Shown piece after piece: positions 5,825 through 55,120 of a DNA stretch of 64,000 nt (positions are counted from its first letter, which is position 1; each line of letters begins with the position of its first letter). The position numbers and the translations under genes are program-made. The stretch comes from a bacterium (GTDB lineage: Bacteria > Cyanobacteriota > Vampirovibrionia > Gastranaerophilales > Gastranaerophilaceae): assembly GCA_017941035.1 (NCBI GenBank), contig JAGAXG010000008.1, forward strand, positions 1 through 64,000. The letters are read 5' to 3'. Under the pieces are notes generated by a model that worked only from the letters and a program-made list of their open reading frames with translations, did not search any database and was not told where the DNA came from.

Positions 5825-5964
5825 AAAATACCCTTTCTTTCTGCATCTCTTGATGCGTTTTTACTATACACTTCCATTAAGTACAGTACAATTTTACAAC
5901 AAACAGAAATAAAAGCATAATTTAATAGCAAAAAAAAATTTTTTTGTTTTTTATAAATAGAGTT

Positions 5965-6525
5965 ATGAAAATTGAATCAAACAATAATACTGCATTCGGT
6001 GCTAAATTTATAAAATTTGAAAAAATAAAAAAATTAAAAACAGCAGAAAAGACTTATGAGAATATTTATGCATCTTTTGTAGAAATTAATCCACAAAATC
6101 AAAATGATATATCTGCTCTTTCAAAAACTGCAAAGTATTGGGAAAATGAAAAATTCGCAGGTAATATTTATTTAACAGCAAAAGAATTAACGAAACAAAC
6201 AAAAAATATTGGGAAAATATACGCATTAACAGAACAAAAAGGGAATTTTGAAAAGCTTGAATTTAAAAAAATTTTAGGGATAACAAATATTATAAAAGAA
6301 GATACTAAATGCATTTATCTTGATCATATACAAACAAATCCAGCATACATATACGATGTAATGAATAAATTTAAAGGTATTGGAAGCGGAATATTAAATT
6401 CATTAAAATCTTTATATAATGTAATAACTTTAATATCATTGGATACAAAAGCGACTAAAAATTTTTATAGAAAAAATGGTTTTCAAGAAGTTAACAATTC
6501 GAATTTATTTGTTTGGTATAAATAA
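5965..6525 (+). CDS. GNAT-like N-acetyltransferase with lineage-type N-terminal motif
   Basis: Probably a GNAT-fold acyltransferase of 186 residues; the substrate is unknown. The second half looks like the GNAT core: a strand with YLDHIQTNP, the acetyl-CoA loop region KFKGIGSGILNSLKS, and the late motif SLDTKATKNFYRKNGFQEV, which is typical of GNAT C-termini. The first 15 residues, MKIESNNNTAFGAKF, carry the N-x-[FY]-x-G type motif seen on other proteins here. I chose the ATG at 5965 over an upstream TTG at 5944 because it gives that motif at the N-terminus and a TATAAA box lies 7 nt before it. There is no Shine-Dalgarno sequence. It is divergent from pnp. Confidence 0.7.
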   Translation: MKIESNNNTAFGAKFIKFEKIKKLKTAEKTYENIYASFVEINPQNQNDISALSKTAKYWENEKFAGNIYLTAKELTKQTKNIGKIYALTEQKGNFEKLEFKKILGITNIIKEDTKCIYLDHIQTNPAYIYDVMNKFKGIGSGILNSLKSLYNVITLISLDTKATKNFYRKNGFQEVNNSNLFVWYK

Positions 6526-9281: not shown

Positions 9282-10991
9282 ATGTTTATGATTAAAAAAG
9301 TTGAATTAGGTAGTGTAAAAAATAATAATACCCCGAAATTACGAAAAGGGGAAACAAATTTCACAGGTCTTGGTGATATAGCATTAAAAGGTGTACAGAT
9401 GTGCGAACAACATCCTATGGTTAATGTTTCTGTACTTGATTTATCTACTGCAATACTACCAAGAACTTTTTTTGAAACTTTTATCGGTTCAAAGAAAAAA
9501 GATGAAAATGGTGAAATTCAAAAACGTAAATTAAATTTATTTGGAGGATTTGAAGCATTCAGACGAGAATCTTCAGGTTTAATTATTAACTGCTTAATTC
9601 CTAGTTTTCTTGTAATAGGAACTGCTAAGTTATTAAACAAACCTGTAATGGGCGGATTTAATAAATCAGACTTGACAAAATCATGGGCAAACAGTGAAGT
9701 TATTGATAATATAAATTCGTTCTTCTTAAACTCTAAAGGTACAAGCACAAAAGAGCGAATTATTGACACATTAAAAACGATGACAAATGATTTGCATGGT
9801 GCTGACGGAAAAGAAGAAAAAGCCTTTAAAAATTTTCTTTTAAATGATCCTGAATTTGATAAAATTCTTGAAAAAACAGCTGATAATATAACTAACGGCG
9901 TAAGAGAAGAAATTGTTTCAAAAAATAAAACAGTTGCAAAATTAAAAAATTTCTTTGGAATAAAATCATATAAAAATTATACAGATGATTTGTATGAATA
10001 TGTTCTAAATAAAACCGGTATTGCAGAAAATATCAAATTTTCTAAAGATACTGGATATTCAACAAGCAATTTAAAACATTTGTACAACAGTACCGGTGAA
10101 ATATTGAGTGGAATTGTAAAAGAAAATATTGCTCAGGATTCAGAGCAAATATCAAAATACATAACAAAAGCAAAACGTTTAGTAAATGCTAAAAGCGCTT
10201 TTGGTCTAATAGGTTTGATTATTCCTCTTGCTATATCAGCACAACCTATTAACAGATGGATTACACATAAACTTTCCGGCAAATCCGGAGCTCCAATTTA
10301 TAACGATGATAAAGATAGGCATTTGACATCTGACGAAAAGAAAAAACTTACGGCTGAAAAATTTATTGCTGTTCCTTTAATGTGGGGAGTAGCAGGATTA
10401 TCAATGCTTATGGACAGACCTAGTTTAAAAATGTTCCAATTTAAAAATATATTTCCAACAATGGATCAGGCAAGAATTATTTCTGCTGCAACATTCTCTT
10501 CAAGAATTGCTGCATCTGAAGATTCGAATGAATTAAAAGAATCTACTATAAGAGATATAGCAACTTTCTCCAGCTTCTACTTCTTAGGAGATTATGCAGC
10601 AAAAGCAATTGCGACATTTATAGAAAAAACTAAGGGTATAAAATTAATAAATACTTTAAAAGAAAAAGAACAAAATGCCAATATTTTACAAAAATTCTGG
10701 CACTGGGCAAAACATACAACAATGAAATCATCAGATGAACTCAGTTCAATTAAAGATGAAGTATTAAGAACAAAAAGCACAAGATACCGAGCAATGTGTC
10801 AATTGGGCAATTTGGCATTCTCCCTGTTATCTTTAGGGATATTTATTCCTCTATATACACGAACCCAAACTAACAAAAAACAAAAAGAACAGGAACTAAA
10901 AACTAAAATAGCACAAGAAGCATCTGCTACATTCTCCAGCAATTTTTCAAAATCTCCTGCATTCAAATCTTTTTCGTTAGTACAAAATTAA
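9282..10991 (+). CDS. Large membrane protein of unknown function (tandem paralogue 1, NFTG motif)
   Basis: I do not recognise a named family in this 569-residue protein. The N-terminus carries GETNFTGLGD (about 24-33) with no signal peptide. Hydrophobic segments include GLIINCLIPSFLVIGTAKLL (about 94), FGLIGLIIPLAISAQPINRW (about 307) and LAFSLLSLGIFIPLYTR (about 508). It is paralogous to the next gene: LPRT, E-A-x-RRES-x-G, SAQPINRWITHKLSG, MFQFKNIFPTMDQARIISAA and SNELKESTIRDI have direct counterparts there in the same order. The C-terminus is charged. ATG at 9282 or 9288 are both possible; no strong ribosome site is seen. The 12-nt gap to its paralogue implies one operon. The role is unknown; a structural or surface function in the inner membrane is a guess. 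Confidence 0.75.
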   Translation: MFMIKKVELGSVKNNNTPKLRKGETNFTGLGDIALKGVQMCEQHPMVNVSVLDLSTAILPRTFFETFIGSKKKDENGEIQKRKLNLFGGFEAFRRESSGLIINCLIPSFLVIGTAKLLNKPVMGGFNKSDLTKSWANSEVIDNINSFFLNSKGTSTKERIIDTLKTMTNDLHGADGKEEKAFKNFLLNDPEFDKILEKTADNITNGVREEIVSKNKTVAKLKNFFGIKSYKNYTDDLYEYVLNKTGIAENIKFSKDTGYSTSNLKHLYNSTGEILSGIVKENIAQDSEQISKYITKAKRLVNAKSAFGLIGLIIPLAISAQPINRWITHKLSGKSGAPIYNDDKDRHLTSDEKKKLTAEKFIAVPLMWGVAGLSMLMDRPSLKMFQFKNIFPTMDQARIISAATFSSRIAASEDSNELKESTIRDIATFSSFYFLGDYAAKAIATFIEKTKGIKLINTLKEKEQNANILQKFWHWAKHTTMKSSDELSSIKDEVLRTKSTRYRAMCQLGNLAFSLLSLGIFIPLYTRTQTNKKQKEQELKTKIAQEASATFSSNFSKSPAFKSFSLVQN

Positions 10992-11003: not shown

Positions 11004-12653
11004 ATGATAGTAAATAGCATACAGTCAAAAAACATATACACAACTCAAGAATATAAAAAACTAAAACCACAAAATATAAACTTTACAGGTTTTTCTCCAG
11101 CACCTCTTTTAAATTGGTTGGATACAAATCAAGCATGGGGCGCTAATGCTGTTGACTTTTTCTGTATGGTACTTCCAAGAACGTTAACGGATTTTGGAAG
11201 AGGGAAAGATGCCGGAATTGAAACTGCCAGACGTGAAAGTATGGGAACAATCAATGATTCTTCTGTCGGGGCATACGGTACGCTCGCAGGTCTTGCTCTT
11301 GCAATGGGAGTAAATAAATCTTTCAAACTCGGTGATAGAGATATTAAAGTTTCTTCTGTATTCGCAGATTCTGAAACAATTGATATGATGGGTGATATTT
11401 GGTATAAAAAACTTTCGCCAGATATTAAGGATCCGCTATTAGAAAGAATAAAACTTTCACTAGGTAATTATGAAGTATTCAAAGACGGGAAGTGGGAAAA
11501 ATTCACAGACTCAGATATCGAAAAAGCTTCTAAAATTTTAAAACGTGAAATTGAAACGCATGAAAAACTTTCTAAAGATATAGCATATGATGTTCGTAAA
11601 ATTTTAGCTTCTTCAAACAATCTTGAAAATAATTTTAGAATTATATCTAAAACTGGTAAAGAACATTCTTCACGCTACGGTATAAATTCTATAGTAGAAA
11701 ACACATTCAAGTTATCTAAATTGTTTACAAAAGAAAAAGTAGTTGAAGCTTTTGAAAATTCTATAGATTCAAATTCAAATGAATTTTTAAAAGCATTAAA
11801 GAAAATGAACCTTAAGCGTTCATTATCAGGAGTTGCAATTGCAACTGCTGTCGGATGTTCCGTTCAGCCTATCAATATGTGGTTGACTAAACGCAAAACA
11901 GGATCTGATAGTTTTGTAGGGGGTGGCAAAAAAGATGACTCCTTAAAATTTAAAATAGAAAAAGCTCTTGTAGGCTTTGGGTTTGGAGCTGGTGTAATTG
12001 CGACCATTGGGAATCCAAAGAACTTAATTAAAAATCTCCAATTCAAAGGATTTACTCCTACTATTAACCAATTAAAATTCATTTATGGTGCGACAATTAT
12101 TTCAAGATTTCTTGTAGCACGTAACGAAAATGAATTAAAAGAATCTTCGATTAAAGATATGTTAGGATTTACCAACTGGCTGATTTTAGGAAACTTTGTT
12201 CAAAAACTTACAGCCCAAGCTCTTGATAAATCACTTGTTAAACAAGAAAAATTCGGAGGTATAATTAATTGGATTACATCTTCATCGCTAAAAACAAGAG
12301 ATGAAATACTTCATTCTGAATTAGGTGAAAAAGCATTTAAAAATGGAAAGGCTTTAAGTTTTAATGAAATGGTTAAGGCTTTACCTAAAGGTTCAGAAGC
12401 CTTTAAGAAATTAAAAGTTCTTACTATTGCACAATTAGCAGGTTATGCATACTCAGGCATTGTTCTAGGTATCGGAATACCTAAATTAAATATATTCTTA
12501 ACTAACAGAAGACTAGCAAAAGAACATGCTAACCAAAAAATTCAAGATGCTAACGAACAACAAAAAGAAGTAAATAATGATGGAATGTTAAATCCATCTA
12601 ATATTCAATTCTTAAAAGAATTTACTGGAAGCAAATTTTTCAATAAGAATTAG
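11004..12653 (+). CDS. Large membrane protein of unknown function (tandem paralogue 2, NFTG motif)
   Basis: A 549-residue paralogue of the preceding gene. It starts MIVNSIQSKN and carries QNINFTGFSPAP at about residues 24-35. Shared landmarks are LPRTLTDF, ETARRESMG, SVQPINMWLTKRKTG, LQFKGFTPTINQLKFIYGA and ENELKESSIKDM. Hydrophobic stretches include GAYGTLAGLALAMG, SGVAIATAVGCSV, KALVGFGFGAGVIATIG and AQLAGYAYSGIVLGIGIP. A transmembrane segment ending in P-x-N or P-x-x-N followed by [FW]-L-T-[KN] appears twice (SVQPINMWLTKR and IGIPKLNIFLTNRR), which hints at an internal duplication. AAGG lies upstream of the ATG. The function is unknown; the operon with its paralogue suggests they act together. 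Confidence 0.75.
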   Translation: MIVNSIQSKNIYTTQEYKKLKPQNINFTGFSPAPLLNWLDTNQAWGANAVDFFCMVLPRTLTDFGRGKDAGIETARRESMGTINDSSVGAYGTLAGLALAMGVNKSFKLGDRDIKVSSVFADSETIDMMGDIWYKKLSPDIKDPLLERIKLSLGNYEVFKDGKWEKFTDSDIEKASKILKREIETHEKLSKDIAYDVRKILASSNNLENNFRIISKTGKEHSSRYGINSIVENTFKLSKLFTKEKVVEAFENSIDSNSNEFLKALKKMNLKRSLSGVAIATAVGCSVQPINMWLTKRKTGSDSFVGGGKKDDSLKFKIEKALVGFGFGAGVIATIGNPKNLIKNLQFKGFTPTINQLKFIYGATIISRFLVARNENELKESSIKDMLGFTNWLILGNFVQKLTAQALDKSLVKQEKFGGIINWITSSSLKTRDEILHSELGEKAFKNGKALSFNEMVKALPKGSEAFKKLKVLTIAQLAGYAYSGIVLGIGIPKLNIFLTNRRLAKEHANQKIQDANEQQKEVNNDGMLNPSNIQFLKEFTGSKFFNKN

Positions 12654-28725: not shown

Positions 28726-29961
28726 ATGATAGTAGACAACACATTAGTAATGATTTTAGCAGGAGGAGAAGGGAAAAGACTCTTTCCCCTAACCAAAGAC
28801 AGAGCTAAACCTGCAGTCCCATTTGGCGGAAGATACAGAATAATTGATTTTGTATTAAACAATTTTATTAACTCCGGATTTTACAAAATTAAAGTTCTCA
28901 CTCAATATAAATCTGATTCATTAAATAAACATATTACAAGAGGCTGGGCTTTATCTCCTTTTTTGAACCAATATGTAGATTTATGTCCTGCGCAAATGAG
29001 AACAGGTAACGATTGGTATAAAGGAACTGCAGATGCTATATACCAAAATATTTTTCATATAATTAACGAAGACCCTCGCTATGTATGTGTTTTTGGCGGA
29101 GACCATATATACAAAATGCAAGTATCACAAATGCTTGATTTTCATAAAGATAGAAAAGCAGACTTGTCTATTTCAGGAATACCTATTCCTATCGAAGAAG
29201 CCTCAGAATTCGGAATTATGGAAGTTGATGAGAATTGGCGTTTAATAAATTTTGTTGAGAAACCACAGCATAAACCAAAATCTATTCCGGGAAATCCTAA
29301 TATGTGCTTGGCCTCTATGGGAAATTATATTTTTGATAAGGAAGTTTTGCTTGATGCAGTTACAAGAGATGCAAAATTAGAAAATTCTTCTCACGATTTT
29401 GGTAAAAATGTAATACCAATGCTTCTATCAGAAGGTAAAAATATTTACGTTTACAATTTCTCGCAAAATTCATTTCCTGGAATGAATCAAGCAGAACGGG
29501 GGTATTGGAGAGATGTAGGGAGCATTGATGCATATTGGCAAGCCAATATGGATTTACTTGATTATTCTCCTGTATTGAACATTTATTCCAAAGAATGGCC
29601 ATTAAGAACATTCAATTATAATTATCCTCCGGCGAAATTTGTCTGGGAAGAAGGAGATAGAGTCGGAATGGCAACAAATTCTATGGTCTCTGAAGGCTGT
29701 ATTGTTTCAGGGGGAGGTTTATCTCATTGTATATTATCGCCTAAAGTTAGGATAAATAGTTATTCAAGCGTATCAGACAGTATATTAATGGAAAATGTTG
29801 AAGTCGGCAGATACTCACAGATTAGAAAAGCTATTATTGATAAAAATGTAATAATTCCTCCTAATACAAAAATTGGTTTTGACAGAGAAGCTGATATTAA
29901 ACGAGGATTTCACGTATCAGATGGCGGAGTCACTGTAGTTCCAAAAGGAGCTATAATATAA
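28726..29961 (+). CDS. glgC: Glucose-1-phosphate adenylyltransferase (ADP-glucose pyrophosphorylase)
   Basis: Makes ADP-glucose, the committed step of bacterial and cyanobacterial glycogen synthesis. The 411-residue protein has the nucleotidyltransferase motif [20 protein letters not shown] followed by [17 protein letters not shown], the catalytic GGDHIYKM region, and [19 protein letters not shown] for the glucose-1-phosphate site. A left-handed beta-helix at the C-terminus ([20 protein letters not shown]) is typical of allosteric GlgC. The ribosome site is GAGG. A terminator follows. glgA and glgB are not in the window, but a malQ-like gene and a GH13 amylase are. Confidence 0.95.
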
Positions 29962-32474: not shown

Positions 32475-33326
32475 CTAACGAAGCTTGTATCTAACAACAG
32501 AATCACTTCCTTGAGAAGATATGAAAAGCAAATTTCCATTAATATGCATACAGTATGGATTTTTAACATTAGAAATAAGTTCTGAAACAATTCCACCAGT
32601 ATCAACTTTTAATACATTATTTTTATTATAATTTGCTATATATATATTTCCATCTTCATCAATAGCAATACCTATAGGACCATCAATTTTTTTATCTTTT
32701 ATATATACGATTTTTTTATTATCAGGACCTATTTTATATATTGTATTATCTGAAAACCCTGCGACATATATATTACCATTGTTATCCGTAACAATGCCTG
32801 TAGGACTTGAAATATCACTGTATAAACCATTAGAATCATCTTTAGGATTTGCTTCAGCAAAAGATTTTGGCTTTTTTTGCTCTGCCTGAATTGTTGGTAA
32901 ATCTGTTTGCAAAGTACTTGCAAGTTTATTTGCTCTTTGACCGATTAAAGAATCAACAGGTATCAATGATAAATACATTTTTGCTTTATCAGGATTGCCA
33001 ATTTTCTTACTTAATTCTGCGGCCTTATATACAGATTCATAATCATCAGGCTTTCTTAAAATAATTTGCTTAAATGCATTAAGCGCTTCTTCATTTTGAT
33101 TAAGATATTCTAATAAAGACCCCAAATTGAAATACGCATCAATATAATTAGGATCAAGTTCAGTAGCCTTTTTAAAACTATCTATAGCCATATTATACTG
33201 ACCAAGCTGATAGTAATCAATACCCTTATTATATTCAAGTTTAGCATCATTAGCAATATTCGCAAAAACAGGAATACCCAAAAACAATAATGATGATAAT
33301 ACGATTATTAATTTATTTAATTTCAT
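32475..33326 (-). CDS. Exported TPR-NHL repeat protein
   Basis: A 283-residue protein with an N-terminal signal peptide (about 1-22, IIVLSSLLFLGIPVFA). Two to three TPR repeats follow (YYQLGQYNMAIDSFKKATEL, then YFNLGSLLEYLNQNEEALNA), and then a short NHL-type beta-propeller part with repeated GI-x-x-D-x-x-GNIY[IV]A (ISSPTGIVTDNNGNIYVAGF and IGIAIDEDGNIYIANYNKN). It is likely periplasmic and works in protein-protein contacts. It overlaps the end of the glucanotransferase gene by 14 nt with GAGGAG inside it, so the two are coupled; why an amylomaltase should be coupled to a periplasmic propeller is not obvious. Confidence 0.8.
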   Translation of the reverse strand: MKLNKLIIVLSSLLFLGIPVFANIANDAKLEYNKGIDYYQLGQYNMAIDSFKKATELDPNYIDAYFNLGSLLEYLNQNEEALNAFKQIILRKPDDYESVYKAAELSKKIGNPDKAKMYLSLIPVDSLIGQRANKLASTLQTDLPTIQAEQKKPKSFAEANPKDDSNGLYSDISSPTGIVTDNNGNIYVAGFSDNTIYKIGPDNKKIVYIKDKKIDGPIGIAIDEDGNIYIANYNKNNVLKVDTGGIVSELISNVKNPYCMHINGNLLFISSQGSDSVVRYKLR

Positions 33327-35160
33327 CTAACTCCTCAATAATTTTTTTATTATCATTTGCCAAACCTTTTGATATTATAGCCTTTTTCAAAATTTGAGGC
33401 AAGTTTATAGTATTCATATTTTCAAAATTATCAGGAAGCCTTAAACTCCAGTTTTTATCGCCAGAAGTTCCCGGAACATTGTATGTTTCTTCCATATTAA
33501 AGAAATCAGTAAAGAATATTTGAACATTTTCAGCATCACAAGTAAAAAGTTCAACTAGCTTTGTTTCTTTTAAAAAATCTGCATCTTTCGTCATTTTTAC
33601 TATAATATCGTCTTTATTTTCAACATTAGCAAATAAATCTTCAACAAGATTTTTAACATGCAAATAACCCTCATGAGTATTTACTAAAGATTTTGCCCAT
33701 TGAGAAACCGGTTTATTATCGTGAGTTCCAACCATAGCCCAGCATTTTTTGCCGATATTTTTACATCTATATGGATCATCTTTTTCTGTCGGAACAGTAA
33801 ACTGAGTCAATTTCATTCCCAAAAGTCCATATTCTTTCATTACTTCAGCAACAGGTGTTGTTAAAGTACCCAAATCCTCGCAAACAATTTGATTTTTGGA
33901 TAAACCTTCTTCCTCTGCGGCTTTTATAACAATTTTTTCAATTAATCTGCCATAGAGTTTTATTTGATCTTTTGTCAAAGATTTTACTCTCTTTTCATTA
34001 TCAGAAGTATATTCATCATTCAAATCACTAAGTTGCGCAATTGCGTATTTTTTTAGTTCAGGATGTTCAGGTGAAGAATATAATCTACCAGCTCCTTGCT
34101 CTGACATAGGTTTTTTCCCTTCTCTGTAAACCCAAGGATCAATAAGCCCCACAATGTGGTCTATTCTGACTCCACCAGGGTTTTCGCGGAACATTTTTTT
34201 ATATAATTCTTTCATTAAAATACCGCCTTCTCCCAAAGAACCATCAGAATTAAACAATTTTTCAGGATTCATTACAGGGAACCCCCATGCTTGACCATCT
34301 TTTGAAAAATAATCAGGAGGACAGCCTAAACACCAGCCTTCCAAAAATAATGATTGATATGCCCAAGTATCACGATCTGAAAATGCGACCTGACGATCAG
34401 CTATCATTTTTAAATTTCTTGATTTTGCATATATACGAGTTTCTTCATTCTGCTTATATAAAACAAATTGAATGAATTTATACTTATCTATTTCTTTGGA
34501 ATATTTTTGAGAAAGTTCATTAATCCTATTAGCAAATTCAAATTTTTCTTCATTTGATTTAGGATTTAAGAGATTTTTATCTTTTTCACTTTTCCAATGT
34601 GGCCAGTAATCAGTTCCATGTTCAATAGACAAAGCTTCATATAAACTATCATTGTCAAGCCACGATTTATTTTTATTTTTATACGATTCAAATTCTTTAT
34701 TCAATCTTTTGTCATTGAGCTTTATAAAATTATCATAAGCTTCTGAAAGAGCACTTTCCTGTCTTACTGTTATATAGGAATAACTTGTTCTATTTGTATC
34801 TTTGTTCGGATTATTATTAACGATATCGTTAAAAGAATCTATAGAAAGAATATTTCTCCATTTTTTAGTTGTAAGTTCTTTTAAATCAATAAATAAAGGA
34901 TTATTTGAAAAAATTGTTCCTGTATATGGAGAAGCGTCAGAAGATTTTGTTTTACCTGCAGGTCCCATTTGGATAGCATCAAAAATACCTGCAATATAAT
35001 CCAAAAATCTTTTTCCTCCATTTGAATTTATTGTCCCAAATCCAGTATTTTCACCCTCAAAAGCAGGAAAACTTCCATTGTGCATGATAAAAACTAAATT
35101 TTTTTTCCCAAGAAGCTTTAACGCTTTTTTTATAGTTTTAGCACCCTTTTTATCAAACAT
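33313..35160 (-). CDS. malQ: 4-alpha-glucanotransferase (amylomaltase, GH77-type)
   Basis: Transfers alpha-1,4-glucan segments, in glycogen turnover or maltodextrin use. The 615-residue protein has the GH77 nucleophile region VRIDHIVGLIDPWVY, the acid/base CEDLGTLTTPVAEVMKEYGL and the transition-state motif VGTHDNKPVSQW. Its N-terminus is unusual: where most MalQ proteins have an S-x-LHPTSLPG motif, it reads NGSFPAFEGENTGFGTINSN with GPAGKTKSSDASPYTGTIFS. It is also longer than the usual 500 or so residues. A divergent subfamily is therefore likely. AGGGG precedes the ATG; the tRNA-Lys gene lies just upstream on the same strand. Confidence 0.85.
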   Translation of the reverse strand: MFDKKGAKTIKKALKLLGKKNLVFIMHNGSFPAFEGENTGFGTINSNGGKRFLDYIAGIFDAIQMGPAGKTKSSDASPYTGTIFSNNPLFIDLKELTTKKWRNILSIDSFNDIVNNNPNKDTNRTSYSYITVRQESALSEAYDNFIKLNDKRLNKEFESYKNKNKSWLDNDSLYEALSIEHGTDYWPHWKSEKDKNLLNPKSNEEKFEFANRINELSQKYSKEIDKYKFIQFVLYKQNEETRIYAKSRNLKMIADRQVAFSDRDTWAYQSLFLEGWCLGCPPDYFSKDGQAWGFPVMNPEKLFNSDGSLGEGGILMKELYKKMFRENPGGVRIDHIVGLIDPWVYREGKKPMSEQGAGRLYSSPEHPELKKYAIAQLSDLNDEYTSDNEKRVKSLTKDQIKLYGRLIEKIVIKAAEEEGLSKNQIVCEDLGTLTTPVAEVMKEYGLLGMKLTQFTVPTEKDDPYRCKNIGKKCWAMVGTHDNKPVSQWAKSLVNTHEGYLHVKNLVEDLFANVENKDDIIVKMTKDADFLKETKLVELFTCDAENVQIFFTDFFNMEETYNVPGTSGDKNWSLRLPDNFENMNTINLPQILKKAIISKGLANDNKKIIEELDEIK

Positions 35161-47123: not shown

Positions 47124-48815
47124 CTAGTGTTGTTTATAAACCTTGTCTGAATATACTTCTATATTTGGAGTATCGATTTCAAATACATGAATTCTTCCAG
47201 GTCCAAGTTCAAGCGCAATTTGACCGTCTGAAACTTGGAATTTACTATCCTGCCCATATTTTGGAAGCAAATTATCTAATTTTTGATTTTCTTTTAATGT
47301 AGGAACTTTTACTTTACAAGCAACTGAACGGTTTACGTCTTTATTCGCAAGTACTAACAATGTTCTGCCGTGTCTGTGACGAGCAAAAGCTATAACTTGA
47401 TCGCGCTTGTCTTTTTCTTTATTCAATATAATATAAGAACCACGATTTACAATTTCTTTATACTTATCCCTAAATTTCAAAGTCTCAGACATGAACTCTC
47501 CGATTTTAGGTTCTTTACCTCCAGGTTGTCTTGATAAATTAAAGATATCCAATTTCCCTTCATGAGCAGTCATTTCATGATTATCAGTCATTGTAACAGG
47601 GTTTTCTATACCTCTGTAATTATACAAATAGTAGTCTCCGGATTGAAAGCCATCAACATAATAAGGATTCATCATAGGTAAAGTTGCTTGCAAGCCTGAA
47701 GTAAGATTACAATAAACTTCTCCTCCGTGAAACATTGGAGATACATCATCATGAGTAGCAAATGAACCTATTAATGATTTACCAAGATTAACACGGTATG
47801 ACATATTCAAATTCTCAACGACATAATTATGCATATCTGTAGCAGTAGGCCACTCGTGGAATATATGATATTGTCCATAAATTGCATCAAATCCAGCTCT
47901 GAGAGAATCTTCAGGTCTGTCATAAGGCATATTGGCTTGTGGAGAGGCATCTTCATAAGTATAAGTTTCTGCAAGCCAAGCAAATTGAGGATCTCTTTTA
48001 TGGGAATAAGGTATAATAATATCCCAAAATTCAACAGGTTTTGCTCTTGCAACATCGGCACGAATTCCATCTACACCAGCATCTATCATCATATCAACAA
48101 ATTGTCTGTGATATTCTAAAAGCTGAGGATTCAATGTTCTTTTGCCTTCATCATCCCAAGGCTGGAACATTCTTATATCCTCCCAACCTTGTGGAGTTTT
48201 TGGGATTCCGTTTTCGATAGCCATTAACTCCGGCTCAGCTTTATACAAATCGTAAGAAGCACAACTTGGCATATCAACCATCACTCTTATACCACGTTTG
48301 TGACATTCTTCTACAAAAAACTTAAACTGTTCCTTATCTGTGCGAGGATCGTCTTTATCTATTAATACTGGGTCAATTTTTAATAAGTCTTCCGGAGCAT
48401 AAACAGATCCTGCTGTTCCCATAGCATTATTTTTGCCGGGAGGATTTATTGGAAGAACATGTAAAGTATTAAATCCTTGAGATTTAATCTCATCTAATCT
48501 TTTTATTGCGCTTAAAAATGTACCTGGTTTTTCATTTCCATCTATGTAACCATTTCCATTTTCATCAACTGCTGTAAATGTTCTTGGTATAATTGCAAGA
48601 ATTTTTGCACTATTTGTATTAAACAGAGTTTTTAAATCATTTTTATAAACATTCTTTTGAACGATCGGAGCATTGGCCACAGCCTGAGCATTCAAAAAAT
48701 TAGCTAATAAGTTTGAATTCTCCGAGACTGGTGATTTAACAATAGAATTATTTCCATAACTTATATTATTATATTGTTTTCTAATAATTAAATTGGAAGA
48801 AACTGCATTTATCAT
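47124..48815 (-). CDS. GH13 alpha-amylase-like enzyme with EF-hand loop
   Basis: A 563-residue glycoside hydrolase of family GH13. The nucleophile Asp is in GVDGIRADVAR, the acid/base Glu in AWLAETYTYED, and the third Asp in FATHDDVSPMF; the barrel start is KILAIIPRTF. A canonical EF-hand calcium loop (DENGNGYIDGNE, Asp84 to Glu95) is inserted after the first strand. There is no signal peptide; the N-terminus MINAVSSNLIIRKQYNNISY with GNN carries the N-x-[FY]-G type motif. It is the last gene of a three-gene operon with two membrane proteins, overlapping the one upstream by 1 nt. It probably acts on glycogen or starch; exact specificity is unknown. Confidence 0.88.
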   Translation of the reverse strand: MINAVSSNLIIRKQYNNISYGNNSIVKSPVSENSNLLANFLNAQAVANAPIVQKNVYKNDLKTLFNTNSAKILAIIPRTFTAVDENGNGYIDGNEKPGTFLSAIKRLDEIKSQGFNTLHVLPINPPGKNNAMGTAGSVYAPEDLLKIDPVLIDKDDPRTDKEQFKFFVEECHKRGIRVMVDMPSCASYDLYKAEPELMAIENGIPKTPQGWEDIRMFQPWDDEGKRTLNPQLLEYHRQFVDMMIDAGVDGIRADVARAKPVEFWDIIIPYSHKRDPQFAWLAETYTYEDASPQANMPYDRPEDSLRAGFDAIYGQYHIFHEWPTATDMHNYVVENLNMSYRVNLGKSLIGSFATHDDVSPMFHGGEVYCNLTSGLQATLPMMNPYYVDGFQSGDYYLYNYRGIENPVTMTDNHEMTAHEGKLDIFNLSRQPGGKEPKIGEFMSETLKFRDKYKEIVNRGSYIILNKEKDKRDQVIAFARHRHGRTLLVLANKDVNRSVACKVKVPTLKENQKLDNLLPKYGQDSKFQVSDGQIALELGPGRIHVFEIDTPNIEVYSDKVYKQH

Positions 48816-51256
48816 TATTTATTCCCTCCGTTTTTGTTCATTTTTCCCATAAAGAATTGAGAAAATATTGTCAAACCTAATAAAGATATTCCCATTGTTC
48901 CAAACATTTTTAACCATTTTTTCCCGTTATAATTACGCGAAAATAATTTTTCAAACATTTCATCCGGAGCACACCCGAGTAATAGTGATTTTTTTTCAGA
49001 ACTTGATTGCACTTCTTTACCATCAACAAGAACATTTGGAAATGCAAAATATTTATCTCCACCAAGATAATTTAAAATATCTTGTCTATATTTCAAAAAA
49101 TTATCTCTAAAAATTGAGCCTTTCAAACCGGCATCTGTGTCAGGATGAATATCTTGACCGTACATAAGTTTCATAACACCGTTGAAAAATCCTCTGTCAT
49201 AAGGTAATTCTACTGCTCCAGCATTCTTAACTGTTTCTTTATTAAGAGACGGATTTCGTAAATAATAAAATTTAACTGCGAAATCAGAAGCATGACCATC
49301 TATTAAAAGCTGCTTTACGAGTTCAATCATTTCAGATTGTACATTTTTTGGAACTCCGGCATGCAAAGCCCAATCTACATTTTCCATTTTAGCAATTCGT
49401 CTATAAACATCTAATGCATTTAATATTCTATAAAATGATGATTTTACACCTTTGACTCTGTCAATTAAGAAAGATAATTGTATATCCTTCAACGAAGTTG
49501 TATCTGTAATCTCATATCCTATAAGCCTTTCTGCTGTATCAACCATCCCAAGAGCCTTAAGATCTTTAGCAGCATCATTAAAAGTAGTCATTACATATTT
49601 TTTGTAAAGATTATTTAAATCACCGCTATATTTATCTATATCAGCAAAATTTGTTTTATTTTCTAAATAAGACAATTTGCGTTCAAATACTTCAACAACA
49701 TTTTTATATTCATCATCGTTAGAAGCTATTTTTTCAAATTTTTCTCTAAGAAGTTTTCCTACAGGCTCTCTGTCAAATCTGTTTTTCTTTATATCTTCAG
49801 AATTTATTCCTAGCGTTTTTAAAATTTCATCTCCAACCATTTCATTCCAGCAATTAGCTAAAATTGTTTCAGGTGCTTGAGCTGTTTTTATATAAGCGAA
49901 TTTATCTAAAACTATATTTTCTGCTTTAAACTTATTCAAAATTAAAGATATAGATTTTAACCTATTTGACAAATCTTCAGATAAAACAAAATTTGATTTT
50001 GATTTAAAAGCATCAATAATATCAGATGAATTTAATCCTTCTTTTTCAGAATAAAGCATATCTTGAAGCTTAAATTCCAACATTGATTTAAGTTCAGGAT
50101 GTTTTGCCTCATATTCTCTGACATTCCAATACATTATATCCTGAATGGCATTTAAGTGTTTAGAAAATTCTTTTACATTTTCTAACGGAAGATTTAAATC
50201 CTTAAATTTTTGAGAAATAACTTCAGCAGAAGGTACCAAACTCGAGAATTCACCTTTGAATTTATTTTGAAGAACATTCCTTACAATATTTACATCAATA
50301 TTAAAACCCTTATTTTTTGAAAATCTTTTTAAATCCTCTTTTATATATTCAGATGTAACATCATCCATTCCATCTGTAATGTTACATAAAATTTTTTTGA
50401 ATAATTCATCTGATATTTCTTTATTCTTGTTTTCAGCTAATATAGAGTCCAATGTCTCTGAAACTTTTGAAAAACTATATTTTTTAGACTCTTCAGAAAA
50501 ATTCTCCAACAATTTATCTGCTTTTTCATTTATTCTTTTATCTTGGAAATTAGCAATTGGCTTTTCTAAAGCATTACATATTAATGCACTCATAATTGGA
50601 GTAGCAAAACCTGACGTGAGCATCCACATTGTATTATTCTGAAGAGCAATTTTTCTCATCTTTTCTTGAATAAAATCTCTGCGATTTTTCATATCTTTTG
50701 GGACATTCATTCTGTCTCCGATTCTATTTATTTCTTCTTCAGAATATAAATCCCAAGGAATAAATTGATGATCTTGAAAAACAGGTTTTTTCGTACCATA
50801 ATTGTCACGATATTGCTGTCTGATATCAAATCCATGGATTAAATATGCCGGTAATTGAAGCGCTAGTTTCGGCCAAATATCCATAGAAGCGAGAAAAGAT
50901 CCTAAGCCGACAAATTCCATTATTTTAGTTAAAGGTGTTGATTTTCTTGAATAAAGATAAGTAGCAATTGATAATCCACCTAACTTCATCCCTAAATCAT
51001 TAAGCCTGCCAAGTTCATTATCATTTGCATTTCCGGAAAGAGAATTTTTAAAAGCCTTCAAATTATATTTTGAATCTTTAAATATTTCTGACGGTATATC
51101 AAAAAGGCTGGTCTTTACTAATTGACCATTACTTGGTAAAGGTTTGATAAAGGTTCTATATGTTAATTCTTTATTAACATCAAAATTTTTTCTTGCATTA
51201 TCAGAATTATATTGCTGATTACCATTTAAGTATGATTGAATTAAATTTGTTTTCAT
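48815..51256 (-). CDS. Large membrane-associated protein of unknown function, amylase operon
   Basis: An 813-residue protein with no recognised domain. The first 250 residues contain hydrophobic stretches (LGGLSIATYLYSRK; VGLGSFLASMDIWPKLALQL; MLTSGFATPIMSALICNAL), then a long charged helical middle (about 230-640). A single helix sits near the end (KMFGTMGISLLGLTIFSQFF) with a basic tail. HQFIPWDLYSEEEINRIGDR resembles FTRWDLLYGDPNDKK of the next protein upstream. It lies between the 344-residue gene (1-nt spacing) and the amylase (1-nt overlap), so all three are co-translated. Role unknown; it may place the enzyme at the membrane. Confidence 0.7.
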   Translation of the reverse strand: MKTNLIQSYLNGNQQYNSDNARKNFDVNKELTYRTFIKPLPSNGQLVKTSLFDIPSEIFKDSKYNLKAFKNSLSGNANDNELGRLNDLGMKLGGLSIATYLYSRKSTPLTKIMEFVGLGSFLASMDIWPKLALQLPAYLIHGFDIRQQYRDNYGTKKPVFQDHQFIPWDLYSEEEINRIGDRMNVPKDMKNRRDFIQEKMRKIALQNNTMWMLTSGFATPIMSALICNALEKPIANFQDKRINEKADKLLENFSEESKKYSFSKVSETLDSILAENKNKEISDELFKKILCNITDGMDDVTSEYIKEDLKRFSKNKGFNIDVNIVRNVLQNKFKGEFSSLVPSAEVISQKFKDLNLPLENVKEFSKHLNAIQDIMYWNVREYEAKHPELKSMLEFKLQDMLYSEKEGLNSSDIIDAFKSKSNFVLSEDLSNRLKSISLILNKFKAENIVLDKFAYIKTAQAPETILANCWNEMVGDEILKTLGINSEDIKKNRFDREPVGKLLREKFEKIASNDDEYKNVVEVFERKLSYLENKTNFADIDKYSGDLNNLYKKYVMTTFNDAAKDLKALGMVDTAERLIGYEITDTTSLKDIQLSFLIDRVKGVKSSFYRILNALDVYRRIAKMENVDWALHAGVPKNVQSEMIELVKQLLIDGHASDFAVKFYYLRNPSLNKETVKNAGAVELPYDRGFFNGVMKLMYGQDIHPDTDAGLKGSIFRDNFLKYRQDILNYLGGDKYFAFPNVLVDGKEVQSSSEKKSLLLGCAPDEMFEKLFSRNYNGKKWLKMFGTMGISLLGLTIFSQFFMGKMNKNGGNK

Positions 51257-52291
51257 TTATCCAACCACACTTTCTTTATTTTTATCCATAACATCATTTG
51301 AACTAACATTTGAAGGCTTCTTACTTATGTGTACAGTGTTAAGAACCCCCAGTAAAGTAGTTGACAATGCTAAAGCTAAAACTCCCTTACCAGCATGTTT
51401 TTCGAAAGAAGATGTTACCTCTGACGGCCCTTTATAAAGATTTATTGCACTTTGTTTTAAACTTTCAACAAAAACTTTTAACGAATGACAAAATTCTTCT
51501 GATTTCCAAAATTTTAGAGTCGCTACTTTAAAATAATCATCCCAAGGTTTTTGGAATGCCAAGGCTACACCGCATGCAGCCCACAAATATGAAGAAAAGC
51601 TACGGGCAAGAGTTGATTTCACAAGTATTTCTTTATAAATAGGCTTAACTTCTTGATCTGAATCATTTAAATTTTCTCCTAATCCATTTTTCTTCGCGAT
51701 TTTATCAAATCTTTCATTCAAAGTTTTTTTATCATTAGGATCACCATATAACAAATCCCATCTGGTAAATTCTACACTCTCCCCAACTTTATGATATTCA
51801 TAACTTGTCAAATCAAAATCATCTTTAGTTTCAGGAAGTTGATGGTACACCTTTAAATATGGCAACTGAGTGTCAACTCCAGTAATCCATTTTACAGGAT
51901 AGTCAACAAAGGATTTTGATATTGATTTCGCAAAAGCATAAAATAAAACTCCAAGAGCCATTTTATTGCCTAGTTTTGAAGCTTTTGCCATTTCAGTATT
52001 TGAAAAATATTTATTTGCGGAATTAAATACAGACATTAATGTTGCACTTCCAATAATATATGGAACTGTGCCCATTGTTAAAAATTCATAAAAATCAGAA
52101 TTTATGTTTCCCTTTAACCCTCTGGCAGGATATACAGTAAAAGCTTTTGTAAATTTATCAAGAGCAATTCTTGATCGTGTTGAAAAATTATTTGGCAAGA
52201 GCATATCAGACTTTGGTGATGACACATCCTTTTGTTTTTCATTCCCAAATACTGTATTTTTGATATCTATACTACTTACCGATGGTATCAT
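51257..52291 (-). CDS. Membrane protein of unknown function, first gene of amylase operon
   Basis: A 344-residue protein starting MIPSVSSIDIKNTVFGNEKQ, which carries the N-x-x-F-G motif (Asn12-Gly16) near its N-terminus. Hydrophobic segments are near 92-108 (MGTVPYIIGSATLMSVF), 130-145 (MALGVLFYAFAKSI), 243-258 (SSYLWAACGVALAFQ) and 313-328 (GVLALALSTTLLGVLNTV). It shares GVD or GFD followed by a WDL motif with the 813-residue protein, so both may come from one family. GGAG precedes the ATG. It heads the operon that ends with the GH13 enzyme. No function can be named. Confidence 0.7.
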   Translation of the reverse strand: MIPSVSSIDIKNTVFGNEKQKDVSSPKSDMLLPNNFSTRSRIALDKFTKAFTVYPARGLKGNINSDFYEFLTMGTVPYIIGSATLMSVFNSANKYFSNTEMAKASKLGNKMALGVLFYAFAKSISKSFVDYPVKWITGVDTQLPYLKVYHQLPETKDDFDLTSYEYHKVGESVEFTRWDLLYGDPNDKKTLNERFDKIAKKNGLGENLNDSDQEVKPIYKEILVKSTLARSFSSYLWAACGVALAFQKPWDDYFKVATLKFWKSEEFCHSLKVFVESLKQSAINLYKGPSEVTSSFEKHAGKGVLALALSTTLLGVLNTVHISKKPSNVSSNDVMDKNKESVVG

Positions 52292-52372: not shown

Positions 52373-53218
52373 TTACTTAAAAATATTAAAAAATATAATG
52401 GTAAAAAATCCCATTACAAGGCAATACCAACCGAATATATTTAACGAAAATTTTGAAATAAATTTCATAAAATATTTTATACATAAATATCCTACAATTG
52501 CAGATACAATAGTTCCTACAATTATAGATGTCCAATTATAATTTAAAGCCTCGATTATATCAATTTTTATTAAAGGATAAACCATTGAAGCACCTAATAT
52601 AATCGGAATACTTAAAAGAAAAGAATATCTCGCAGAAGTTTCTCTATTTAAACCCGCGAAAAGTCCTGTCGCGATCGTCCAACCGGAACGGGAAAATCCC
52701 GGCAATACAGCTATACCCTGAGCTATACCAACAAAAAGCGCTTGCTTCCAATTTAATTTATCAAATTTTTTTTCACGTTTTTTTGATAAAAATTCACTAA
52801 AAAATAAAACCACACCAGTTAAAATTAATAAACATCCAACTCTAGCAGGATGATATACAAGATGTTCTGCAAAATCATTTAAAGGTAGCGCCAAAGCAAT
52901 TGTTATGATTGTTCCAAATATAATATACAATCCTAATTTAGCATTACTATCAGAAATATTACGTTTTTTACAAGCAAAAAACAACGCTCTTGCAATTTCA
53001 AAAATATCTTTTCTAAAAAATATTAATACAGCAATTAAAGTCCCCAAATGAAGCATAATATCGAAGAAAATCTCTTCATTAGATTGAGAAACTATTTTTA
53101 TTCCTTTAAAAACTTTATAAAAATTTGATGTAAAAACTAAATGCGCAGAACTAGATACAGGTAAAAATTCACTTAAACCCTGAACTATTCCCATTAGTAT
53201 AGATTGTATTAAATTCAT
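52373..53218 (-). CDS. uppP: Undecaprenyl-diphosphatase UppP (BacA)
   Basis: Recycles the lipid carrier for peptidoglycan and O-antigen synthesis by removing a phosphate from undecaprenyl diphosphate. The 281-residue integral membrane protein has the glutamate-rich motif QGLSEFLPVSSSAHLV and the second motif LPGFSRSGWTIATGLFAG, plus seven or eight hydrophobic helices. AAAGGA precedes the ATG. It is last of the kdsD-kdsC-queD-uppP group, all on the minus strand. Confidence 0.96.
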   Translation of the reverse strand: MNLIQSILMGIVQGLSEFLPVSSSAHLVFTSNFYKVFKGIKIVSQSNEEIFFDIMLHLGTLIAVLIFFRKDIFEIARALFFACKKRNISDSNAKLGLYIIFGTIITIALALPLNDFAEHLVYHPARVGCLLILTGVVLFFSEFLSKKREKKFDKLNWKQALFVGIAQGIAVLPGFSRSGWTIATGLFAGLNRETSARYSFLLSIPIILGASMVYPLIKIDIIEALNYNWTSIIVGTIVSAIVGYLCIKYFMKFISKFSLNIFGWYCLVMGFFTIIFFNIFK

Positions 53219-53278
53219 AAATTTCCTTTTAAGTTTTTATCAAACTATTCCCAACTACCAATATTATTTTACTTTATT

Positions 53279-53641
53279 TTATTCTTCTTCAAAATATGAA
53301 CAACAAGAAGTTTGAGTTTCCCAAACCGAAATCTTACTTAATTGAACAACTCTTTCTTTTAATTTTGTATAAATATAATAAGCAATCATTTCGCTTGAAG
53401 GACTCTCACCTTTGAAATCAGATAATTCATTAATATCTTTGTGATCCAAAACTTCTAAAACAGCATTCAATTCTTTTTTTAACACTTTATAATCAATTAA
53501 AATATTACTTTTATCAAGGCGCTCGCCTTGCACGAAAGCTTCTACCATCCAATTGTGTCCATGCTGATTTTCGCAAGCTCCGTCATAATTTAACAAATGA
53601 TGTGCCGCTGAAAAAAAAGCCTGTGTTTTTATTTCATACAT
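53279..53641 (-). CDS. queD: 6-carboxy-5,6,7,8-tetrahydropterin synthase (QueD/PTPS family)
   Basis: Acts in the queuosine/7-deazaguanine pathway. The 120-residue protein has the zinc histidines in SAAHHLLNY and CENQHGHNW, the catalytic Cys in ACENQHGH, and VLDHKDINEL near the C-terminus. I start it at 53641 because GGAGAGGAG precedes that ATG and it then lies 4 nt past kdsC; an upstream ATG at 53671 would overlap kdsC by 26 nt. Other queuosine genes are not here. Pterin biosynthesis is the alternative role. Confidence 0.9.
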   Translation of the reverse strand: MYEIKTQAFFSAAHHLLNYDGACENQHGHNWMVEAFVQGERLDKSNILIDYKVLKKELNAVLEVLDHKDINELSDFKGESPSSEMIAYYIYTKLKERVVQLSKISVWETQTSCCSYFEEE

Positions 53642-53645
53642 TACT

Positions 53646-54143
53646 TTACTCCTCTCCAAATTGTGCGTCATAAACTAAATCGCACAACTCTCTTACTGCA
53701 CCGTGTCCGCCATCTTTTTCAGATATAAAATTACAAATATTTTTTACTCGTTTTACAGCATCCGCAGGACAAGCAGAAATACCGACATGCTCTAATATCG
53801 CAATATCAGGTTCATCATCTCCCATATAAGAAACTTCATCAAAAGAAAGTTCATACTTTTGCATAATTGCTTCTAATATAGGAAGCTTATTTTTAACACC
53901 TTGATAAACCTCAGTAAAATGCAAATCTTGAGAACGCCTATCAACAGTACCATTTCTACGACCGGTAATTACAGCAGTCATAATCCCTGATTTAATCATC
54001 TTTGCCAAACCATGACCATCTTTAGCATTAAACGTTTTATATTCAACTCCGTTTTCGTCATAAGTGATACTACCATCAGTCATAACACCATCAACATCAA
54101 AAACCATAAGTTTTATTTTCTTTGCCTTTTCTTTAATATCCAT
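53646..54143 (-). CDS. kdsC: 3-deoxy-D-manno-octulosonate 8-phosphate phosphatase
   Basis: A HAD-family phosphatase that releases Kdo from Kdo-8-P. The 165 residues hold motif I VFDVDGVMTDGSITYDENG, motif II TAVITGRRNGTVDRRSQDL and motif III/IV SYMGDDEPDIAILEHVG, the C0-capless form typical of KdsC. Kdo is a core lipopolysaccharide sugar, which is evidence for an outer membrane. Its start overlaps the kdsD stop by 1 nt, giving a kdsD-kdsC pair. Confidence 0.95.
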   Translation of the reverse strand: MDIKEKAKKIKLMVFDVDGVMTDGSITYDENGVEYKTFNAKDGHGLAKMIKSGIMTAVITGRRNGTVDRRSQDLHFTEVYQGVKNKLPILEAIMQKYELSFDEVSYMGDDEPDIAILEHVGISACPADAVKRVKNICNFISEKDGGHGAVRELCDLVYDAQFGEE

Positions 54144-55120
54144 TAAGCTACACCTGCTCTTAACAAATCATGAACATGTATTACACCTATCGGATAATTA
54201 TTTTCATCCACAACCGCCAATGCAGTAATAGAATATTTTTCCATAAGATTCAACGCTGAAGCAGTATAAGCATCAGAGGTAATTCTTTTCGGATTTTCTG
54301 TCATTACATCTTTTACGCAAAGAGAAGTCAGATCAGGATATTTTATTATTGTTCTTCTTATATCTCCATCAGTCAAAACACCGATTAGTCGTTTTGAAGA
54401 ATCTAAAACCATTGCCATTCCAAGCTTATATTCAGAAATTGTTTTTATTACATCCTGAAAACTATCATTTTCTGATACTAATGGCATTCTATCACCTGTT
54501 ATCATCAAATCGGCAACTTTATAAGTTAAGCCTTTTCCAAGTTTTCCTGAAGGATGGAACATCAAAAAATCCTCTTTAGTAAAACCTTTTTTCTCCATTA
54601 AACAAACAGCTAAAGCATCCCCCATAGCTAAAGTAGCAGTTGTACTTGATGTAGGAGCTTTTCCTAAAGTATCAGCTTCACGTTCTACCGAAATATCCAA
54701 AACAACATCACTGGTTTTGGCTAAAGTCGAATTAACGTTACCCGTCATACCAATCATCAGACATCCAAAACGTTTGATCAATGGCAAAAGATTCATCAAT
54801 TCCTGAGTTTCTCCACTATTAGAAATTGCAATAATAACATCATTTTTTGTTATTACTCCTGAATCACCATGAGTACTTTCTGCAGGATGAAGAAAATATG
54901 AAGGCGTGCCCGTTGATGACATTGTAGCAGCAATTTTTTTCCCAATCAATCCTGACTTTCCCATTCCGGTGACAATTACACGACCTTTACAATTATATAA
55001 AATATCAATAGCATTTTCAAATTCTTCACCAATATTATCTCTTAATCTTAAAATTGAATCTGCTTCAATTTTAAAAACTTCTTTTGCTGATTCTAAAACT
55101 TTTGTCAAAGTCATTTCCAT
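54143..55120 (-). CDS. kdsD: Arabinose-5-phosphate isomerase (Kdo pathway)
   Basis: Makes arabinose-5-phosphate from ribulose-5-phosphate for Kdo synthesis. Of 325 residues, the SIS domain is first (VIVTGMGKSGLIGKKIAATM, then STGTPSYFLHPAESTHGDSG, then ISNSGETQELMNLLP), followed by two CBS domains (LMITGDRMPLVSENDSFQDV and VMTENPKRITSDAYTASAL). This is the standard KdsD layout. AGGGAT lies close to the first ATG (55120); the third codon is also ATG and may be used. kdsC follows with a 1-nt overlap. Confidence 0.95.
   Translation of the reverse strand: MEMTLTKVLESAKEVFKIEADSILRLRDNIGEEFENAIDILYNCKGRVIVTGMGKSGLIGKKIAATMSSTGTPSYFLHPAESTHGDSGVITKNDVIIAISNSGETQELMNLLPLIKRFGCLMIGMTGNVNSTLAKTSDVVLDISVEREADTLGKAPTSSTTATLAMGDALAVCLMEKKGFTKEDFLMFHPSGKLGKGLTYKVADLMITGDRMPLVSENDSFQDVIKTISEYKLGMAMVLDSSKRLIGVLTDGDIRRTIIKYPDLTSLCVKDVMTENPKRITSDAYTASALNLMEKYSITALAVVDENNYPIGVIHVHDLLRAGVA

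Follow-up and report, generated by a model that had tools for sequence, protein, structure and literature searches.

A conserved gene trio of the Gastranaerophilales joining a GH13 enzyme to two paralogous helical proteins: a likely dedicated complex with a probable membrane placement

The gene trio and its conservation

The window analysed here, i.e. the whole stretch of 64,000 nucleotides taken from contig JAGAXG010000008.1, comes from a genome of 1.8 Mb that belongs to a lineage of non-photosynthetic gut relatives of cyanobacteria, its closest named relatives being MAGs of Candidatus Gastranaerophilales / Melainabacteria. It carries a trio of genes, all read from the list of open reading frames, together with a short module lying directly upstream:

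51257..52291, minus strand: 344-aa protein, first gene of the trio, no assigned family
48815..51256, minus strand: 813-aa protein, second gene of the trio
47124..48815, minus strand: GH13 enzyme of 563 aa, third gene of the trio, without a signal peptide
52373..55120, minus strand: uppP/bacA, queD-like, kdsC and kdsD genes upstream of the trio, in the same direction, the trio directly following uppP

There are 0 nt between the genes of the 344-aa and 813-aa proteins (hereafter 344 and 813), and the genes of 813 and the GH13 enzyme have 1 nt in common; the sizes, coordinates and strand are those on which the initial annotation had based its description of three genes overlapping or abutting within 1 nt.

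Concerning the relatives, 80 of them were fetched with a GH13 profile, yielding 73 loci that hold all three genes. The trio is contiguous and of unchanged order in all these 73 informative loci of the Gastranaerophilales, with gaps from -32 to +4 nt, and the unlinking in relatives that would have spoken against a functional trio was not seen. The genes for 344 and 813 are both present in 74 of the 98 related genomes and both absent from 23, the discordant or partial cases examined (G005, G028, G049 and G074) being all situated at contig ends. At the level of the order, the trio is contiguous in nearly all loci, and both order and overlap are kept across six families with differing flanks; since the neighbourhood varies from family to family while the trio stays, it is the trio itself that represents the conserved unit. 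A different gene order, with the GH13 gene first, was found in one genome (G077), but its 813 gene reaches the contig edge. When the whole phylum was searched with the 813 profile, all strong matches came from the order of the window, accompanied by three marginal ones outside it (E from 2e-4 to 7e-4). Elsewhere in the class, the trio occurs, among the families sampled, only in the one designated f9.

The GH13 enzyme and its two partners

The 563-aa protein matches the Pfam family PF00128 with 24.3 bits, i.e. barely above the cut-off of 22, the match of its catalytic domain being clearer (best E 2.3e-29) when a profile built from 16 orthologs was compared with the GH13 enzymes of the PDB. With the catalytic triad intact as well, the GH13 amylase-like enzyme proposed from the sequence at the outset is borne out. 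The residues R252, D254, E283, H355, D356 and D357 are invariant in all 99 GH13 orthologs, the fused versions described below included; the predicted catalytic residues, each of them invariant, are positioned as follows:

48054..48056, minus strand: predicted nucleophile D254 (GIRADVAR)
47967..47969, minus strand: predicted acid/base E283 (WLAETY)
47748..47750, minus strand: predicted transition-state stabiliser D356 (ATHDD)

The canonical N-H of the conserved region I, a pair typical of GH13 although not universal there, is absent from the enzyme, its place being taken by D181-x-P-[SG] in 99 of 99 orthologs; the activity may therefore differ from that of an ordinary amylase. All 14 NCBIfam matches obtained up to E 1 are far under their cut-offs, and the GlgE equivalog model is not among them. 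The protein possesses no hydrophobic segment, the N-terminus included (maximum 19-aa Kyte-Doolittle value 0.85), in agreement with the absence of a signal peptide stated by the initial annotation. It should be pointed out that the same genome also encodes a paralog of 512 aa (G000:C31, L108:7462-9000), 39% identical to the trio enzyme and with the D/E/D residues intact, which has no linkage to 344 and 813; as its N-terminus is hydrophobic and signal-like, this genome possesses both a GH13 of the secreted type and one without a signal. This signal-bearing paralog is present in the window's family, with in-frame stops in the matches of some relatives.

The two partners are of no assigned family. 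No Pfam family was found among 18 members of the 344 family and 19 members of the 813 family, no NCBIfam family for the window's 344-aa and 813-aa proteins, and no PDB sequence match for the 344 family; those of the 813 profile, to designed helical bundles and other small proteins of a similarly helical kind, were taken as composition-driven and discarded. The two proteins are nevertheless related to each other, 344 aligning as a paralog with the N-terminal domain of 813 over 195 columns (hhalign probability 98.4, E 4.7e-15), from which 813 differs by a variable helical insert of ~550 residues. The AlphaFold2 models, with a pLDDT of 80 for 344 and 84 for 813, are nearly all-helical with a small strand pair, 344 being predicted to have three to four weakly hydrophobic helices. 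A Foldseek comparison of both models with the PDB gave nothing at E<=0.001, which does not in itself prove a new fold, and the best VIA-align Z values (6.2 for the 344 model and 7.3 for the 813 model) do not rise above the noise expected of helical models. The matches to known folds offered by the two programs, such as apoA-IV, BAR domains and XPR1, are all helical and at noise level, and were rejected.

The GH13 enzyme and 813 have a short N-terminal motif in common:

48690..48713, minus strand: NLLANFLN motif in the N-terminal extension of the GH13 enzyme, of the same type as the 813 N-terminus
51224..51247, minus strand: NLIQSYLN motif at the 813 N-terminus, of the NL[IL]xx[YF]L type

The form N-L-I-x-x-[YF]-[LI] begins 70 of the 74 proteins of the 813 family. 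The strict NL[IL]xx[YF]L-type pattern occurs in 46 of 80 GH13 proteins, and in 0 of 74 members of the 344 family and 0 of 743 flanking proteins. Outside the window's family the motif is weaker, with a combined shuffle p of 5e-4 for 16 order-level GH13 proteins, several of which are devoid of it, and the fused 813-GH13 proteins do not contain it. The segment may be a docking element. The initial annotation had pointed to another N-terminal motif, of the [FY]-x-[GN] type, which is indeed found in the window's GH13 as SYGN; as a docking tag, however, it was abandoned, being common in the 344 family (62/74) and not in GH13 (27/80). NL[IL]xx[YF]L would fit a docking role better, clearly so only within the window's family. 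As a separate observation, the window contains three function-unassigned proteins with N-terminal motifs of the NFTG/AFGA type (9282-10991, 11004-12653 and 5944-6525), the first two adjacent and alike near the motif (LPRT).

Fusion, membrane placement and competing readings

In two genomes from another family of the class (G082 and G092), the 813-type protein and the GH13 enzyme are encoded in one frame, giving proteins of 1030 aa in G082 and 1082 aa in G092, and a 344-like gene lies ahead of this frame and overlaps it by 4 nt; the GH13 part sits directly behind the C-terminal hydrophobic helix of the 813-type part. Gene fusion is a classic sign of interacting proteins, and this one represents the strongest evidence that 813 and the GH13 enzyme would be physically associated.

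It is likely that the trio encodes a dedicated GH13 complex, and its placement at the membrane is probable. The constant pairing of the enzyme with two partners, together with the fusion to one partner in remotely related genomes, indicates that the enzyme most likely acts on glucose polymers from a position at the cell membrane. The reading that we favour, by a little over even chances, is that of a lineage-specific α-glucan-processing complex, in which the paralogous helical proteins 344 and 813 would form a membrane-associated scaffold, also in the lineages without the fusion, and the GH13 enzyme would dock on this scaffold, probably at its cytoplasmic face and possibly through the N-terminal motif that the enzyme has in common with 813. 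The docked enzyme would then cleave or transfer α-1,4-glucan chains of the cell's own glycogen or maltodextrin. The computational basis of this reading consists of the linkage and gene order, the co-occurrence, the paralogy of the partners, the catalytic triad, the missing signal peptide, the fusion in the outgroup family and the clustering with further GH13 genes. Counting against this reading are the partners' hydrophobicity, low for integral membrane proteins, and their flat positive-inside signal, a long GH13-like gene placed on another contig of the window's genome, the N-terminal motif being strong only in the window's family, and the GH13 lacking its usual N-H.

The membrane placement is based on the following stretches of the partners:

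48845..48895, minus strand: C-terminal hydrophobic helix of 813 (residues 788-804), charge-free in 63 rows, Kyte-Doolittle value up to 2.44 in relatives; GH13 fused after this position in G082 and G092
50567..50650, minus strand: charge-free helical stretch of 813 (residues 203-230), from the alignment; helix in the AlphaFold2 model
52013..52084, minus strand: charge-free hydrophobic stretch of 344 (residues 70-93), from the alignment; helix in the AlphaFold2 model
51323..51385, minus strand: C-terminal charge-free hydrophobic helix of 344 (residues 303-323), from the alignment

The maximum Kyte-Doolittle values of the window's 344 and 813 are 1.76 and 1.46, whereas the window's multi-spanning proteins reach 2.3-2.8 and its apparently soluble ones mostly do not exceed 1.6, and the positive-inside test gave a flat charge distribution for both. 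Together with the long helices of the confident models, this low hydrophobicity would suit a soluble or peripheral scaffold, i.e. 344 and 813 as helical, non-integral proteins forming a scaffold, coat or inclusion surface (e.g. on glycogen or on a lipid surface) that bears the GH13 enzyme; the 344 model also resembles apoA-IV, BAR and eisosome proteins, weakly and non-significantly (Z 5-6). Against this stand the charge-free helical runs of 17-28 columns found across both families (63 orthologs) and the values of 1.9-2.4 that several relatives reach in their C-terminal helix, and the structural Z values are no higher than the noise to be expected of helical models; we regard a soluble scaffold as rather unlikely. 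The family-wide charge-free stretches and the hydrophobic C-terminal helices of the relatives favour a minimum of one or two helices embedded in the membrane for 344 and 813. That the two are membrane proteins, as announced initially, is plausible but supported only in part, most clearly at the C-terminal helix; the maximum values of the window's proteins are close to the highest of its soluble ones. Given the missing signal peptide, the GH13 enzyme would probably be held on the cytoplasmic side of the membrane.

If the two partners were a transporter with a GH13 subunit, comparable to the SLC3/SLC7 heteromer, the membrane pair would move an oligosaccharide that the GH13 enzyme processes or gates. 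The fusion straight after a hydrophobic helix, the paralogous two-subunit pair and a gene for an MFS sugar transporter near the fused version are compatible with it, but neither subunit has more than about four hydrophobic helices, all of them weak, or matches a transporter family, and the MFS gene was seen with the fused version only. Moreover, while SLC3A1 and SLC3A2 (rBAT and 4F2hc) similarly tether a GH13 fold to a polytopic partner, SLC3 subunits are extracellular and non-catalytic, in contrast to the trio GH13 with all its catalytic residues kept invariant and with partners for which no transporter family was detected. This arrangement is improbable.

The genomic neighbourhood bears on both the α-glucan part of the favoured complex and a further alternative, in which the trio would act on an envelope polysaccharide or a lipid-linked glycan. 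The latter idea draws on the position of the trio directly after uppP, with queD, kdsC and kdsD upstream; uppP, queD and kdsC are found in 70-71 of 74 close loci and kdsD in 55 of 74. This KDO module with an inserted queD-like gene (52373-55120 in the window) is kept in the clade. It is present in 2 of 19 more distant loci, and also in further near genera, and is missing from the sampled loci beyond the clade where the trio is still there; as a general functional clue, the KDO/undecaprenol context was set aside, its conservation being limited to the genus of the window and genera close to it. The GH13 enzymes adjoining the trio indicate α-glucans instead, making the envelope reading about as doubtful as the transporter.

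The most recurrent of these neighbours is a GH13-like protein of ~1,100-1,450 aa, which adjoins the trio or lies at most 4 kb away (in G048) in 12 of 98 genomes (G047, G048, G062, G064, G069, G072, G073, G078, G079, G080, G082 and G092) from the families f1, f3, f5, f7 and f9. The copy in the window's genome (L210:6869-10933, G000:C22; 1354 aa) is located on a contig other than that of the trio. In this long family, further copies of which are L097:2795-6817, L106:11493-15386, L107:958-5013, L110:1003-4809 and L092:2345-6412, a large insert splits the N-terminal barrel part from the catalytic motifs (DWRIDATKD, VAEVTNE and GNHDK in the L210 copy), Pfam barely or not detecting these proteins. 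In G064 and G069, the long gene is followed by a GlgB/TreZ-like GH13 of 784 aa (L097:297-2651 and L217:14633-16987), giving with the trio a five-gene α-glucan cluster in family f7. A GlgC gene lies at most about 2.2 kb from the trio in G074 and G077; in the window, GlgC (28726-29961) and a divergent MalQ-like protein (33313-35160) are both within 20 kb of it, and the same genome also has a Glyco_transf_5 gene of the GlgA type and a further GH13 in a 705-aa frame. The recurrent GH13, GlgB-like and GlgC neighbours point to α-glucan metabolism, intracellular α-glucan being the theme to which the neighbours of the trio point in common. Just downstream of one trio (L096:12564-16483) there are two near-identical tandem proteins of 627-629 aa with an EF-hand-like D-x-N-x-D-G N-terminus. 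The PADLOC defence models returned for the trio proteins nothing beyond a weak GlgB-type GH13 match (E 0.002), and the idea of an anti-phage role, having no support from them, was dropped.

A wider version of the favoured complex, which we hold as tentative and as clearly less probable than the complex itself, would see the new-family paralogs 344 and 813 as a platform at the membrane or granule surface organising several intracellular GH13 enzymes (that of the trio, the ~1,300-aa GH13-like protein and the branching-type one), i.e. a glycogen system with a spatial organisation in the Gastranaerophilales and in one additional family of the class. The usual description of bacterial glycogen enzymes is that of soluble proteins.

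As to a merely positional operon with no functional linkage, tight gene pairs are numerous in small compact genomes, but in its simple form it is refuted by the order and overlap kept across six families despite changing flanks, by the co-absence and by the gene fusion, and it hardly deserves credence.

The membrane-attached glucan-processing machine of the initial annotation is retained in part, with respect to the linkage, the joint presence and absence, the fusion and the α-glucan neighbours, and weakened, by the weak hydrophobicity, with respect to the integral nature of both partners. If the favoured complex is true, a part of α-glucan metabolism would be tethered in an abundant, largely uncultured gut lineage, two new protein families would gain a testable role, and the natural fusion would mark two of the subunits as partners.

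Comparison with known systems

According to one paper, the Gastranaerophilales are able to convert starch or glycogen via glycolysis (PMC4040986). The titles, abstracts and passages retrieved on Melainabacteria or Gastranaerophilales with glycogen or amylase contain no description of the trio.

Among the PDB entries, the best sequence relative of the trio enzyme is 4gkl (E 2.3e-29), a GH13 deposited as 'Alpha-amylase', which is alike in the triad regions and in a stretch of the C-terminal domain; it keeps the canonical N-H of region I (LNHAAVD), whereas the trio GH13 lacks it. To our knowledge, 4gkl has no tie to membrane proteins.

The second-best relative is the maltodextrin glycosyltransferase (maltosyltransferase) from Thermotoga (1gju/1gjw, E 1.7e-27), the resemblance being one of sequence alone. 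Like the trio GH13, it is without the N-H pair in the aligned region I, and both have in common the N-terminal catalytic stretch R-T-x-x-A ... G-T-F; unlike the trio GH13, it contains a long insertion from region I to the nucleophile. We know of no scaffold partners for this enzyme.

The next PDB group is formed by GlgE, the maltose-1-phosphate maltosyltransferase (E 6.5e-18), with a length of ~660-720 aa against 563 aa for the trio GH13, and likewise with no scaffold partners known to us. In mycobacteria, this GH13 transferase is co-transcribed with GlgB (PMC11046441).
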